From contig VGLU01000011.1 of NCBI GenBank assembly GCA_016882195.1, positions 1 through 35,756 on the forward strand: 35,756 bases of DNA, read 5' to 3'. Made by a program: the position numbers and the translations under genes. Within the stretch, counting starts at the first letter, position 1. Every line of letters starts with the position of its first letter. The DNA is from Thermoproteota archaeon (GTDB lineage Archaea > Thermoproteota > Methanomethylicia > Methanomethylicales > Methanomethylicaceae). Below the pieces are notes generated by a model. That model was not told the origin of the DNA, ran no database searches, and saw only the letters and a program-made list of their open reading frames with translations. Shown piece by piece: positions 7,780-29,071 of the stretch.

Positions 7780-7893
7780 TCATTTCTCGAGCTTTATTGG
7801 ATCTACCCTTTCAGCCCAATCCGCGCTATCAAAGTCGGGGTCGGCCGGGAGGATGCGCTTGACCCTCATCTCCTCGTGCAGAAGGACGGGCGT
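7780..7893 (-). pseudogene. Possible PIN-domain C-terminal remnant
   Basis: The minus strand reads LLHEEMRVKRILPADPDFD followed by SADWAERVDPIKLEK and a stop. This resembles the last third of PIN-domain proteins, where an Asp-containing strand is followed by a W-x-R-x-D tail. There is a stop immediately upstream in frame and no start, so only a fragment remains. Recognition is by pattern only. Confidence 0.4.
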
Positions 7894-12492: not shown

Positions 12493-12634
12493 CCCGCCCT
12501 AGCTCAGTGGTAGAGCGCCCGGCTGTAGACCAACGGTCGCGCGGGGGAAGTCGCTGAACCGAGCGGGATATGTCCCTGCGCCAGCCTGGGCAAGTACCGG
12601 GTGGTCGCTGGTTCAAATCCGGCGGGCGGGACCA
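12493..12634 (+). tRNA. tRNA-Tyr (GUA) with a 67-nt canonical intron
   Basis: Acceptor CCCGCCC/GGGCGGG begins with the C1-G72 pair typical of archaeal tRNA-Tyr. The anticodon stem is CCCGG/CCGGG, the anticodon is GTA, the T arm GCTGG-TTCAAAT-CCGGC, and the encoded CCA is at 12632-12634. An intron of 67 nt (about 12529-12595) separates G37 from A38, the standard archaeal position cut by the splicing endonuclease. Confidence 0.94.
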
Positions 12635-12741
12635 CCACCCACACGATCTGTGGGTAGGAAACTTTATTAGCCCGCGTATTTTTCTCTAATGGATAGCCCA
12701 GCGCCGGGCGTATCTTTTGTGGAAATAATGGTGGGGTTCTA

Positions 12742-12981
12742 TTGGTCAAGTTCGATATTCTAAGTCATGAACTGGTCCCCAAGTTCTTCATTCTCTCCAA
12801 GGAGGAGGTCGAAGCCTTGAGGCATTCCTATGGCATCAGGAAGGAGAGCCTCCCCTGGATCAGGCGGAGTGACCCCGTATGCAAGACGATCGGTGCAAGG
12901 CCTGGGGACGTACTAAAAATAGAGAGGAGCAGTGAGGTTGCCGGCAGGACCGTGGTCTACCGGTATGTTGTACCAGGGTGA
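12742..12981 (+). CDS. rpoH: RNA polymerase subunit H (Rpb5-like)
   Basis: 79-residue subunit equivalent to the C-terminal domain of eukaryotic Rpb5, located in the lower jaw of RNA polymerase. Signature stretches are DILSHELVPKFFILSKEEVE and SDPVCKTIGARPGDVLKIER. The start is TTG 12742, preceded by the purine-rich GGTGGGG; an ATG at 12728 is out of frame. It opens the rpoH-rpoB-rpoA1-rpoA2 operon, the usual archaeal order. The AACTTTATTAG at about 12660 is a plausible promoter. Confidence 0.95.
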   Translation: MVKFDILSHELVPKFFILSKEEVEALRHSYGIRKESLPWIRRSDPVCKTIGARPGDVLKIERSSEVAGRTVVYRYVVPG

Positions 12982-20359: not shown

Positions 20360-20656
20360 ATGGATCTCTCAAAAGAACTCAAGGTAGCCTTGAACACTGG
20401 CAAGGTGGAGATCGGATACAAGGTCAGTCTCAAGATAGCGAGCAAAAAGAAGGCCAAACTGATAGTCGTGGCATCCAACGCGCCGGAGAGTCTATTCGTA
20501 AAGGTGAAGCAGGCTGCGGGTTCTGAGGTTCCGATATACAAGTACCCCGGCTCAAGCTGGGATCTAGGCGGCATCTGCGGCAAGCCATTCCCAGTCTCCA
20601 CGATCACGATCATCGACCCAGGCGAGTCCGCGATCCTTAAGGTCCAGGAGGGATAA
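20360..20656 (+). CDS. rpl30e: Ribosomal protein L30e
   Basis: 98-residue large-subunit protein of the L7Ae/L30e fold that binds kink-turn RNA. Visible are LSKELKVALNTGKVEIGYKV and AKLIVVASNAPESL, then YKYPGSSWDLGGICGKPFPV. Position between rpoA2 and nusA is the conserved archaeal arrangement. The 3' end contains AGGAGGGA, which also serves as Shine-Dalgarno for nusA. Confidence 0.96.
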   Translation: MDLSKELKVALNTGKVEIGYKVSLKIASKKKAKLIVVASNAPESLFVKVKQAAGSEVPIYKYPGSSWDLGGICGKPFPVSTITIIDPGESAILKVQEG

Positions 20657-20659
20657 GGC

Positions 20660-21094
20660 GTTCCTGCAATAAGGTTCACGGCAGACGAGATGCGATTTAT
20701 AGCCCTTCTAGAGAACCTCACGGGGGCTATCGCGAAGGACTGCGTCGTCGAGTCGGAGGGCAACAGGATCATATTTGTCATACGCCCTGGCGACATGGGG
20801 CTCGCCATCGGCAGGAACGGCATGAACATAGAGAGGGCGAGGAAGGTCATCGGCAGGAACGTCGAGATCGTGGAGTATGCCGAGACTCCTGAGGAATTTC
20901 TCAAGAATATCGTTGCCCCCGCCAAGGTCAGGGGAATAAAGATAACCAAAAACTCGGAGGGCAACACCGTGGCTCAGGTGACGGTGGACCCCCACGACAA
21001 GGGCATGGCCATTGGCAAGAGCGGAAGGAACATTTCCAAGACTAGGCTCCTCATGAAGCGCCATTTTGATCTTAACAATGTTGTGATTGTGTAG
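20660..21094 (+). CDS. nusA: NusA-like KH-domain protein, apparent GTT start
   Basis: Short archaeal NusA: two KH domains only, with GDMGLAIGRNGMNIERARKV and HDKGMAIGKSGRNISKTRLL (GxxG loops GRNG and GKSG). It probably binds RNA in transcription elongation or antitermination. The first ATG is 20690, but the frame upstream encodes PAIRFTADE, which matches the family N-terminus (MPxIKLTxEE as I recall it). No ATG, GTG or TTG precedes it after the TAA at 20654. AGGAGGGA (20646-20653) is spaced 6 nt before GTT 20660, giving 144 aa. With the conventional ATG the protein would lack the first strand (134 aa) and have no Shine-Dalgarno. Confidence 0.9.
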   Translation, partial: VPAIRFTADEMRFIALLENLTGAIAKDCVVESEGNRIIFVIRPGDMGLAIGRNGMNIERARKVIGRNVEIVEYAETPEEFLKNIVAPAKVRGIKITKNSEGNTVAQVTVDPHDKGMAIGKSGRNISKTRLLMKRHFDLNNVVIV

Positions 21095-21226: not shown

Positions 21227-21670
21227 ATGGCCGGTTCAAAATCCCCAAGGGGCTTGCTTGCCGGAAGAAAGCTCAGCGAGAAGAGGAGGCGCTTCCGCTG
21301 GAGCCTGCGGCAGTTCAAGCGAAGGGAACTCAAGCTGGACGTGAAGGCAGACCCGCTCGAGGGCGCCCCGCAGGCCAGGGGTATCGTCCTCGAGAAGGTG
21401 GGTGTGGAGAGCAGGCAGCCCAACAGCGCGGTTAGGAAGTGCGCCAGGATCCAGCTCATCAAGAACGGCAAGCAGATCACCGCCTTCCTGCCCGGCGACG
21501 GCGCTCTCAACTTCGTGGATGAGCACGACGAGGTGATAGTGGAGGGGATAGGCGGTCCTATGGGGAAGGCACTGGGAGACCTCCCAGGAGTGAGATGGAA
21601 GGTCGTAAAGATCAACGGCGTTTCGCTCTACGCCCTCATGACAGGAAAGAAGCAGAAGCCCGTGAGGTGA
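21227..21670 (+). CDS. rps12: Ribosomal protein S12
   Basis: Decoding-centre protein of the small subunit. From ATG 21227 it has 147 residues beginning [20 protein letters not shown], like archaeal S12. The universally conserved loop is [20 protein letters not shown], followed by [23 protein letters not shown] lies 6 nt before ATG 21227. An in-frame GTG at 21191 would add a 12-residue extension that does not fit the family. Its TGA stop is part of the Shine-Dalgarno of rps7. Confidence 0.97.
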
Positions 21671-21676
21671 TGAGAG

Positions 21677-22243
21677 ACGTCCGAGATCAAGCTCTTCGGG
21701 AAGTGGGGCTCGTCCAACATCGAGATCAAGGATCTCGGTCTGAAAAATTACATCGCACTCTCATCGACGCTTATACCGCACTCCTGCGGAAGGCACGAGC
21801 ACAAGCGCTTCGGCAAGGCAAAAGTTAACATAGTCGAGAGGCTAGCGAACAGGGTCATGCGCCCCGGCAAGAGCGGGGGCAAGAAGGCCCTGGCGCTGAA
21901 CATAGTCGACGGCGCCCTCCAACTCATCAACCTCAAGACGGGCGAGAACCCGCTACAGATCCTCGTCAGGGCGATCGAGCACTCCGCGCCTAGGGAGGAG
22001 GTCACGCGGATCAGCTACGGCGGTGTATCCTATCCACAGTCGGTGGACGCCTCCCCCCAGAGAAGGGTAGACCTTGCACTGAGGTTCATAACGGACGCCG
22101 CCAGGAACGCGTCCTTCAGCAGCAACAAGCCGATAGAGGAGTGTCTCGCCGAGGAGATAGTCCTTGCTGCGAGCAAGGATGCCAAGAGCTACGCCGTCCA
22201 GAAGAGGGAAGAGATCGAACGCATAGCCATATCCGCCAGGTAA
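21677..22243 (+). CDS. rps7: Ribosomal protein S7, apparent ACG start
   Basis: Small-subunit assembly protein. After the in-frame TGA at 21671 the reading frame runs E-T-SEIKLFGKWGSSNIEIKD and on through STLIPHSCGRHEHKRFGKAK to MRPGKSGGKKALAL. The KLFGKW and PHSxGRHExKRFGKAK segments are conserved in archaeal S7 but lie far upstream of the first ATG (21857). ACG 21677 would give (M)SEIKLFGKW, the expected N-terminus and 188 residues, and GAGGTGA (21664-21670) lies 6 nt before it. An out-of-frame ATG at 21670 would need a one-base deletion to read into S7, so a sequence error is the rival explanation. Confidence 0.93.
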   Translation, partial: TSEIKLFGKWGSSNIEIKDLGLKNYIALSSTLIPHSCGRHEHKRFGKAKVNIVERLANRVMRPGKSGGKKALALNIVDGALQLINLKTGENPLQILVRAIEHSAPREEVTRISYGGVSYPQSVDASPQRRVDLALRFITDAARNASFSSNKPIEECLAEEIVLAASKDAKSYAVQKREEIERIAISAR

Positions 22244-25243: not shown

Positions 25244-25381
25244 CTAGAGGCCATTCCAAGTATAGCCAAAGATGAACATGACAATTAGAGGTACAAAAAC
25301 GAGCATTGCCATTGTTCGTTTGTCGTGTTGTATTCGCCTAAGAACGCCTTTTATGATCGCAAGAGACCTCTTCATGTTCAT
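25244..25381 (-). pseudogene. ABC-2 permease N-terminal fragment
   Basis: A 45-codon frame, MNMKRSLAIIKGVLRRIQHD then KRTMAMLVFVPLIVMFIFGY, followed by a stop. It is the typical cytoplasmic start plus first membrane helix of ABC-2 type permeases (the R-D-K/R-T...P...M..FGY pattern). The remainder of the permease is missing. It overlaps the stop of an ATPase fragment as ATGA. Confidence 0.65.
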
Positions 25382-25449
25382 GGCTTCCCCTCCAAAAGTG
25401 CCAGTAACACGTCTTCGAGAGATTCCATGCCTGTCTTAGACTTTAAGGC
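25378..25449 (-). pseudogene. ABC transporter ATPase C-terminal fragment
   Basis: The frame LKSKTGMESLEDVLLALLEG, then KP and a stop, corresponds to the last residues of ABC ATPases of exporter systems (xPSLEDVFLxLTG pattern). It is cut off at the tRNA-Ser boundary. Together with the permease fragment it marks a lost ABC-2 exporter operon. Confidence 0.5.
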
Positions 25450-25452
25450 ATT

Positions 25453-25561
25453 TGGCGCCGGGGAAGGGATTCGAACCCTTGCTCCCCCGAAGAGGAACCG
25501 GCTTGCCTGTCCCTTTCTGAAGATCTCGAGGCCGGCGCCTTAACCACTCAGCCACCCCGGC
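25453..25561 (-). tRNA. tRNA-Ser (CGA) with a 21-nt intron
   Basis: Minus strand: acceptor GCCGGGG/CCCCGGC, anticodon stem CCGGC/GCCGG, anticodon CGA, long variable arm (TTCCTCTTCGGGGGAGC region), T arm AAGGG-TTCGAAT-CCCTT, discriminator G (serine-type, not the A of leucine), encoded CCA at 25453-25455. A 21-nt intron (25504-25524) sits at the canonical 37/38 position. Confidence 0.9.
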
Positions 25562-26166: not shown

Positions 26167-26209
26167 CTCTGTTGGTATATCTATATCGAACAGGCGAGGC
26201 GTGAAACTC

Positions 26210-29071
26210 ATGAGCGAGAATAGAGGCACAGGGGTTACGCTGAAAAAAGTTGAGGATAACGTATGGGAGATTCCCAAGACCTTCAGGCCAGGGATGAACG
26301 TGCCCGGTAGGGTCTACGCCGACGAGTCACTCCTCCAGAAGATGAGCGAGGACCTCACCCTTACGCAGTGCGTGAACGTGGCTCAGCTACCCGGAATATT
26401 AAAATTCTCCATAACTATGCCTGACGGGCATCAGGGCTACGGCTTCCCCATAGGTGGCGTTGCTGCCTTCGACTCCGAGACAGGCGTCATATCCCCCGGA
26501 GGCGTAGGGTATGACATAAACTGCCTCCCGGTAGGCTCGAAAGTCCTCACCCCTGACGGCTACCGCGTCCCAATAGAGCAGGCGATGCAGCACAAAAGCG
26601 TCTCATGCATCGATTCTGGCAAAGCCGTTCCAGCCATGGTTGCATTGGGACTGAAAAAGCGCGACGGCCCCCTCTACAAAATAGTGACAAAGTCAGGCCT
26701 CACGATAAAGGCAACCGGGGACCACCCGATCCTGACGGCAGAGGGGATGGTCGAGGCAAAATCCTTGCGCAACGGGGTGAGGGTAGCCACGCACCCCTTC
26801 CAAGGAGTGGACTTTGAGTCGCCGCCTCCAGTCGAGATCCTTAGGGAGAATGACTTCATACCTAATATTTCTAAAGCGCTGGTGCGGAGAGAGATCCTTC
26901 CCCTTCGCGCGGGCAACAGGCGCCTCGCCGCAATCCTTAGGCTTTTGGGATACTTTCTAGGCGACGGATCCTTCGATGGCAAAAAGACCTGTTTCTATGG
27001 GAGCAAGGAGGGCATGGCGCAGCTGCGTAGAGATGTGGCAATTCTAGGCTTCAGCCCCTCGCGCGTTTATACTAGAGAAAGATCAGCTTCTATCAATGGC
27101 AAGGGATTCATCTCCATCGAGAACTCCGTCCATGTCTCGGCGCGCAGCTTCAGGCAGCTGATGGAAAGGCTCGGCGCCCCCAAGGGAAACAAGACAGCCG
27201 ACGCATTCGTCGTTCCTGAGTGGATAATGATCTTGCCCAAGTGGCTACAACGATCCTTCTTAGCAGGGTATTTTGGGGCAGAGATGAACAAGCCCCAGAC
27301 CCCCAACGGATACAACCTCGAGCCGCCAGTAGCCTCATGCACCAAGTCAAAGCCGTCCACTGAAAGTGGCATCAAGTTCCTGAGCCAACTGGGGGACATG
27401 TTGAAGGGTTTCGGCGTTGAAGTCTGTGGCATATACCAAGAGGACCTCGGCGACAGGGTAAGGTTAAAGCTCCAGCTCTCCGAGAAGCCGGAATCCCTCA
27501 TCAACCTGTGGTCCAAGATAGGTTACACTTACTCGCCTAAGAAGCAGGGACTGGCACTGGCGGCCGTGAGCTGGCTACGCTGGAAGGTCTCGGTGATCTC
27601 TGAGAGGCAGAGGGTCGCCGTCGCAACCAAGGCTTCCCATACCTCCGGTTCATCCATCCGCGAGATACTGGAAAGTACTGGCGATTGCCGGTGGATCAAC
27701 AGAAGGTTCATCGAGCGTAGCGTATGCGAGGATCGCCTCACGTCGCCCCGGGGCTTCCCGCCCTTCGAGAACTGGGCAGCTGCCTCATTGGAGGGAGACA
27801 TCGTCTGGGACGAAGTGGTCGAAACGACTGAGGAGCGCTACTTTGGCGAGGTCTACGACATCACCGTTGATAATCCCTCCCACAACTTCGTGGCCGAGGG
27901 CTTTATCGTCTCCAACTGCGGGGTGAGGCTCGTTCTCACGAACTTGGAGGTGAAAGATGTTAGACCAAACCTCTCCAAGCTCGTGGACACCCTCTTCGAC
28001 CTCGTCCCTTCGGGGCTGGGTAGCAAGGGTGGCATACGCCTCGATACCGCCCAGCAGGATCAAGTTCTTGACCGTGGAGTCGAGTGGGCGGTGGAGAAGG
28101 GCTACGGCTGGGAGGAGGACGCGAGGAGGTGCGAGGAGGGCGGCAGGATGAAGACCGCCGACCACACCAAGGTCTCCCCCCACGCCAAGGGGAGGGGCGC
28201 CAGCCAGCTCGGGACCCTCGGCAGCGGGAACCACTTCCTCGAGGTGCAGGTCGTGGACAAGATCTACGAGCCGCATACCGCGAAGATCTTCGGGGTCGAG
28301 AACGAGGGTCAGGTGGTGGTCATGATACACTCGGGGAGCAGGGGTCTGGGGCACCAGGTCTGCAGCGACTACCTCCACGTCATGGAGCACGCAGTCTCCA
28401 AGTATAAGATAAGGATACCCGATAGGGAGCTGGCCTGTGCGCCGGCCAACAGCCCAGAGGCCAAGGACTACTTCGCCGCCATGTCCGCCGCCTGCAACTA
28501 TGCCTGGGTGAACAGGCAGTGCATAAATCACTGGACGAGGGAGGCCTTCCAGAAGACCTTCAAGTCCGATCCCGAGAAACTTGGCATGCGCTTGGTATAC
28601 GACGTAGCCCACAACCTCGCAAAGCGGGAGGAGCACACCTACGAGGGCAAGACCCGCACCCTCTTCGTCCATAGGAAGGGCGCCACGAGGGCATTTCCGG
28701 CGGGCCGCCCGGAGATCCCGCAGGAGTACCGGAACGTGGGTCAGCCCGTGATCATCCCGGGTAGCATGGGCACCGCCTCGTACTTATTGGTCGGAGGACA
28801 GAAGTCGCTGGACCTCAGCTGGGGCTCCACAGCCCACGGGGCCGGTCGTTTTCTCAGCAGGGAGGCTGCCATAAGGAAGTACTGGGGCAGCGACGTGAGG
28901 CGCGACCTCGAGAGCAGGGGCATACAGCTGAGGGCTGCAAACATAAGAGTAATTGCCGAGGAGGCCCCTGGGGCGTACAAGGACGTTGACAGGGTGGCGG
29001 ACGTTTCCAACCAGCTGGGCATCGCAACCCTTGTTGCGAGGATGGTCCCATTAGGGGTGACCAAGGGATGA
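26210..29071 (+). CDS. rtcB: RNA-splicing ligase RtcB containing an intein
   Basis: GTP- and Mn-dependent ligase that joins tRNA exons after intron removal (2',3'-cyclic phosphate to 5'-OH). From ATG 26210 the precursor has 953 residues; a GTG at 26201 would add three. N-extein residues 1-104 include [16 protein letters not shown] and GGVGYDIN. The metal-binding cysteine of the family motif [12 protein letters not shown] is the residue after the insertion. C-extein features are [33 protein letters not shown] and the guanylylation-site region HGAGRFLSR. Spliced length would be 488 aa, normal for RtcB. Its stop overlaps the MBL gene start. Three tRNA genes in this window need such a ligase. Confidence 0.97.
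26522..27916 (+). other. RtcB intein with LAGLIDADG homing endonuclease
   Basis: 465 residues (1395 nt) in frame. Block A is [16 protein letters not shown] starting with Cys1, and block B is [13 protein letters not shown] (TxxH). Two LAGLIDADG-type helices are [11 protein letters not shown] (about 26940-26972) and FLAGYFGAE (about 27259-27285). Block F is [19 protein letters not shown] and the C-terminal block G is FIVSN followed by Cys+1. The usual penultimate His is Ser here. Insertion is immediately before the catalytic metal-ligand cysteine, the place where I recall the Pyrococcus horikoshii RtcB intein. Confidence 0.95.

Follow-up and report, generated by a model that had tools for sequence, protein, structure and literature searches.

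The stretch of DNA analysed here, hereafter the window, comprises 35,756 nucleotides and is contig 11 of 41 in an archaeal assembly of 1.45 Mb that is 97% complete (genome G000; L218 for the helicase locus discussed below). Its nearest named relatives are Candidatus Methanomethyliaceae and Methanomethylicus, of the class Methanomethylicia (Verstraetearchaeota). According to its open reading frames the window carries the gene order rpoB-rpoA1-rpoA2-L30e-nusA-S12-S7-EF1A, and the features at and around the L30e-nusA junction are listed in Table 1. Elsewhere, positions 26201-29071 hold an RtcB RNA ligase gene with an in-frame intein (Pfam PF14890, residues 137-572), and the ORF translations PPAGFEPATT and GAGEGIRTLAPP, at 12504-12749 (-) and 25325-25543 (+), resemble read-through of tRNA-like genes; ARAGORN placed no tRNA at either site.

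Table 1. Features of the L30e-nusA-S7 region of the window
Feature	Position	Strand	Remarks
Ribosomal protein L30e gene	20360..20656	+	ORF with ATG start, ATG kept across the family; NCBIfam NF002172, 109 bits
Shine-Dalgarno (SD) AGGAGG	20646..20651	+	Within the 3' end of L30e, 8 nt before GTT
L30e stop TAA	20654-20656	+	Precedes the nusA start by three nt and shares the nusA frame
GTT, putative nusA initiation codon	20660..20662	+	NTN in every examined genome of the class
nusA, archaeal NusA with two KH domains	20660..21094	+	144 codons plus stop; TIGR01952, 170.9 bits; 2CXC, E=1.7e-29
ATG of codon 11, first canonical start of the nusA frame	20690..20692	+	Rejected as start
ACG, putative rpS7 start	21677..21679	+	Window genome only; SD GAGGTGAT at 21665-21672; ATG/TTG/GTG in relatives

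From position 20646 the sequence runs AGGAGG, GA, TAA, GGC, GTT, CCT GCA ATA AGG TTC ACG GCA GAC GAG and then the ATG at 20690, so that a single codon (GGC) separates the L30e stop from GTT. An earlier note on this DNA had claimed that no ATG, GTG or TTG occurs between that stop and the ATG, which a direct reading of the window confirmed, and that the frame upstream of 20690 encodes the N-terminus of archaeal NusA. The latter claim was borne out by two matches that reach almost to the first residue. Translated from 20660, the frame aligns from its residue 3 to profile positions 2-141 of 141 of NCBIfam TIGR01952 (nusA_arch), with a score exceeding the cutoff of 74.35 bits and thus qualifying as archaeal NusA, and the match to the Aeropyrum pernix protein (2CXC) starts at residue 5. 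Archaeal NusA binds RNA, has two KH domains and is of unclear function (PMC8116511). Measured from GGAGG, the SD stands at a fitting distance from GTT and 38 nt from the ATG of codon 11, again as the note had held.

In the methane-cycling order to which the window genome belongs, nusA was found in 21 of the 23 genomes compared. Its codon 1 is GTT in the window, TTT in five genomes (G003, G004, G008, G009, G022), TTC in one (G014), TTA in three (G002, G013, G017), ATA in six (G001, G007, G012, G018, G020, G021), ATT in one (G019) and TTG in four (G005, G006, G010, G011). ATG or GTG is thus found in none of the 21, and in 17 of them TTG is absent as well. Among the sister families codon 1 is ATC in all five f4 genomes and ATA in f8 and f9 (two genomes), which brings the non-canonical codons to 24 of 38 class genomes. 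In f9 an in-frame GTG that overlaps the SD lies two codons upstream of codon 1; a GTG at this distance is recorded for G033. The class families f3, f5, f6 and f7 start nusA with ATG or GTG, and in the genomes sampled from the remaining Thermoproteota classes ATG, GTG or TTG stands at the equivalent place or no more than a few codons away. Those homologues that have a canonical start begin at the equivalent of the window's GTT, and the comparison with related genomes places the N-terminus of NusA at codon 1 and not at the equivalent of MRFIALLENL; both results uphold the start proposed in the earlier note. In most genomes the codon directly after the L30e stop and before codon 1 is GGC, TGC, GCC, GTC, ACC, CAC or GCT, and in most the open nusA frame contains no upstream alternative start, the codons there not being near-cognate. 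On these sequences, the apparently non-canonical nusA codon of the order is far beyond chance.

A sequencing or assembly error concealing a true GTG or ATG, which the 41-contig state of the window genome and the lack of a canonical start in its S7 (same operon, this genome only) might suggest, is practically negligible for nusA and is excluded by the relatives: ATG and GTG are likewise missing, with differing codons in their place, from the other 20 nusA genes of the order, including those of the named assemblies L032-L035 from separate projects. The systematic sequence problem considered in the earlier note is not supported, as ATG is absent from this place in all 21 assemblies, which are separate and in some cases come from unrelated named projects.

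Evidence that translation begins at codon 1 came from the pattern of substitutions. A tree of 38 class genomes was built from L30e, S12, S7 and NusA from codon 12 onwards, and changes were counted by parsimony; this four-short-protein tree is consistent with either one or two origins of the trait. The three positions of codon 1 changed 5, 0 and 9 times, those of codon 2 (Pro) 1, 0 and 14 times, and those of codon 4 (Ile) 0, 0 and 9 times. The silent changes in codons 2 and 4 indicate that residues 2-10 of NusA are under selection at the protein level and, together with the unchanged middle base of codon 1, that translation begins at codon 1, where positions 1 and 3 are free and the middle U is fixed. 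U in the middle is likewise characteristic of codons for hydrophobic residues.

The Shine-Dalgarno sequence agrees with this start. Wherever the SD is clear, GGAGG lies 7-9 nt from codon 1, as compared with 6-9 nt in relatives with ATG or GTG; in a few genomes whose SDs are weak or rich in G, the automatically assigned spacing was 11-12. The window genome contains the 16S 3' end GGATCACCTCCTA, and the predicted duplex of the nusA SD there has an energy of -12.5 kcal/mol, equalled or surpassed in just 1.8% of 169 sampled genes of the same genome. In G003 the corresponding proportion is 1.4% of 143 genes, and in the ATA genus g2 the SD is ordinary (28-44%). We estimate a probability of roughly 80% that nusA of Methanomethyliales-type archaea initiates at codon 1, at a non-canonical NUN codon (GUU in the window) supported by the SD. 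In model organisms, very poor initiation would be expected of UUU and GUU. Four genomes have TTG, an accepted start; that a weak codon within the canonical set is tolerated too counts against this explanation.

The L30e stop precedes nusA codon 1 by +3 nt in the window and by +1 to +4 nt wherever the distance could be resolved, in all nusA-bearing genomes of the order but G014 (20 of 21), so that the pair has the arrangement of termination-reinitiation, in which stop and start overlap or stand a few nt apart. Archaeal coupling needs overlap or very short gaps (PMC10666635), and 1-4 nt falls within the working range. Since the window stop is in frame with nusA and one codon away, one might suppose instead that L30e and NusA are fused by stop-codon readthrough or frameshifting. 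Across the genera, however, TAA, TGA and TAG all occur as this stop, and its distance to codon 1 is 1, 2, 3 or 4 nt, which puts it in all three frames relative to nusA, with neither a fixed frame relation nor a shared slippery site, which excludes readthrough or fusion as a shared mechanism. The optimal SD, moreover, would serve no purpose in a fusion. An out-of-frame ATG in an overlapping ATGA, combined with a frameshift, was rejected as well, the ATGA being present in some genomes and absent from G000, G002, G008, G013 and G022. We consider a fusion exceedingly improbable. A conserved hairpin at the nusA start was sought and not found (consensus -0.25, shuffled mean -0.85).

Slightly better placed, and still highly improbable, is a start at the ATG of codon 11 with the upstream codons untranslated. 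This ATG is kept in most genomes of the family, and gene finders would pick it. Against it stand its distance from the SD and the many silent and few replacement changes of residues 2-10, conserved residues that such a protein would lose. Homologues with canonical starts begin at codon 1, and those that start there with ATG or GTG also commonly have Met at position 11. In G029, finally, codon 11 is ATT and the first 47 codons of the frame contain no canonical start. Automatic annotation is likely to shorten NusA by 10 N-terminal residues, and by more in G029; other genes of this kind would then be hidden.

The third alternative within the nusA frame is initiation at the near-cognate AUA, AUU or AUC of codon 4, an AUH codon that is conserved in 38 of 38 class genomes and is one base from AUG. 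The SD would then be spaced by about 17 nt, the 14 silent changes of Pro2 and the fixed U of codon 1 would be unexpected in untranslated sequence, and Ile is also common at this place in relatives with ATG or GTG at codon 1. We regard a start at codon 4 as very unlikely, and hold to codon 1.

Two non-standard starts in one superoperon had led the earlier note to suggest relaxed start selection in the lineage. We compared stop-to-stop ORFs of the nusA loci, the ribosomal-protein regions around uS3 and sampled genome stretches. In a set of 644 conserved gene instances (20 genomes), nusA alone lacked a canonical start lineage-wide; the isolated exceptions were the ACG of S7 in the window genome, one Cbf5-like frame of G031 and a few ORFs that are short and doubtful. 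ATG is the start of both S12 and L30e in the whole family. A sample of 967 starts consisted of 587 ATG, 248 TTG and 132 GTG, the only codons that the method admitted. The canonical starts of ribosomal-protein and neighbouring genes indicate that start selection is not generally relaxed, and the suggestion is not sustained. As for the two genes, the claim holds for nusA, lineage-wide; the second, most likely S7, is private to the window genome, where either a true ACG start or a base error is possible. The Cbf5-like frame of G031 (L120:17037) lacks a canonical start for 49 codons, relatives have one, and a frameshift or assembly fault is probable.

The scan for conserved N-termini without a canonical start, as the earlier note had proposed it, covered sampled stretches and returned a few near-cognate cases and no general relaxation. 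A pairwise comparison of G000, G001 and G003, covering as much as roughly 400 kb of each, gave two real-looking additional cases, the remaining output being mostly conserved upstream or overlapping-gene sequence as judged by eye. One is FEN1, with an apparent CTG start in G001 (L164, minus strand, about position 7792 of the reverse complement) and ATG in G003. The other is a DEAD-box helicase (L222:1501, G001:C6:16861; orthologs L217 and L219-L228), which has an invariant ACG in 11 genomes and ATG at that place in G000. Its ACG stands 5 nt after GAGTTGAT or a close variant, the same distance as that of GAGGTGAT in S7, and is a second candidate for a conserved non-canonical start. Near-cognate starts thus occur at low frequency in this lineage, with nusA outstanding in both extent and kind of codon.

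In the initiation machinery, loss of aIF1 was ruled out as a cause, the factor being present in all 21 near-complete class genomes, and an altered initiator tRNA was rejected likewise, since Met-tRNAi retains the normal CAU anticodon. Where found, the Met-tRNAi of f1 genomes carries a short intron after the anticodon (L204-L215), which is absent in f2-f7; f2 (TTT) and f4 (ATC) are intronless yet share the trait, so the intron is not its cause. That no machinery change was found to explain the trait fits a gene-specific cause.

Our best reading is that nusA has a gene-specific, conserved and weak NUN start, which would be rescued by a strong SD and by coupling to L30e. The SD in the end of the L30e gene may pair with the 16S tail, both partners being present in the sequence, and would hold the ribosome that terminates on L30e over codon 1; the stop 1-4 nt upstream, as in most family genomes, would bring that ribosome to the spot. 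Met-tRNAi(CAU) would then be accepted with the middle A-U pair as the only one common to all codons, a step to which the invariant middle U points, and the first residue would be Met. Inefficient initiation may in turn set NusA at a small, fixed fraction of L30e. That ATG is never regained suggests that weak initiation is retained, and that it is tolerated or even selected. We would put selection for weakness at just short of an even chance. As a further guess, NusA output might depend on the stringency of aIF1 against mismatched codons. An extended version, in which the NUN start is selected order-wide to stay weak and NusA output reads out initiation stringency (aIF1/aIF2) or L30e translation, an archaeal counterpart of the infC AUU placed on a transcription factor and accepting UUU, is speculative and on balance unlikely.

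The one alternative with real standing accepts the start at codon 1 and competes only with this last, functional step. By neutral drift, coupling and SD would make the codon nearly irrelevant, any NUN would be tolerated and no regulation would be involved. The wide variety of codons, the tight coupling geometry and the exceptional SD in several genera speak for drift; other closely packed genes of the same operons nevertheless retain ATG, GTG or TTG, and ATG never returns though ATA, ATT, ATC and TTG are one step away. We hold drift to be quite possible, at clearly less than even odds. The failure to regain ATG favours selected weakness and the codon variety favours drift; the data do not separate the two.

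Under the codon-1 reading, a single gene would lack AUG across an order, its replacement codons lying one or two bases from AUG with the middle U alone fixed. If SD pairing and the terminating ribosome do most of the work, this bears on start recognition in archaea, whose aIF1, aIF1A and aIF2 are shared with eukaryotes. In the open-access literature we found no report of a conserved archaeal start outside AUG, GUG and UUG, or of the nusA case, which is weak evidence; the papers on aIF1 discrimination and the other literature searched likewise described no case of a conserved NUN start in a natural archaeal gene. Very few genes with conserved starts of this kind are known, and none in the searched literature is archaeal.

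Termination-reinitiation in Haloferax volcanii takes place at stops and starts within a few nt (PMC10666635, PMC6728339). Most of those pairs overlap by 4 or 1 nt and have canonical starts, whereas nusA shows a gap of +1 to +4 and a non-canonical start. In vitro, aIF1 of Pyrococcus and Sulfolobus disfavours non-canonical starts (PMC6237735, PMC8211752), and the initiation machinery is the same here, aIF1 included. A close parallel is bacterial infC (IF3), an essential gene whose conserved AUU/AUC start, also outside AUG, GUG and UUG, has been kept over long evolution (as cited in PMC5472188). The infC gene encodes the fidelity factor itself, so that its codon gives direct feedback, whereas NusA is not an initiation factor; the infC system uses IF3, in whose place archaea have aIF1; and infC starts with AUU in E. 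coli and with AUC in Streptomyces, as against GUU, UUU, UUC, UUA, AUA, AUU, AUC and UUG in nusA. Streptomyces sigR, which is repressed by IF3, starts with GTC, or GTT in two species, a non-canonical codon conserved in the genus together with a highly conserved SD, AGGAGGTG (PMC5472188). It differs in being bacterial, in resting on experiment and IF3 dosage and in having one dominant codon, while the nusA codon varies freely at positions 1 and 3 over an order. With infC and sigR nusA shares a conserved start that is not ATG, GTG or TTG, an SD at a working distance (7-9 nt) and retention across related species.
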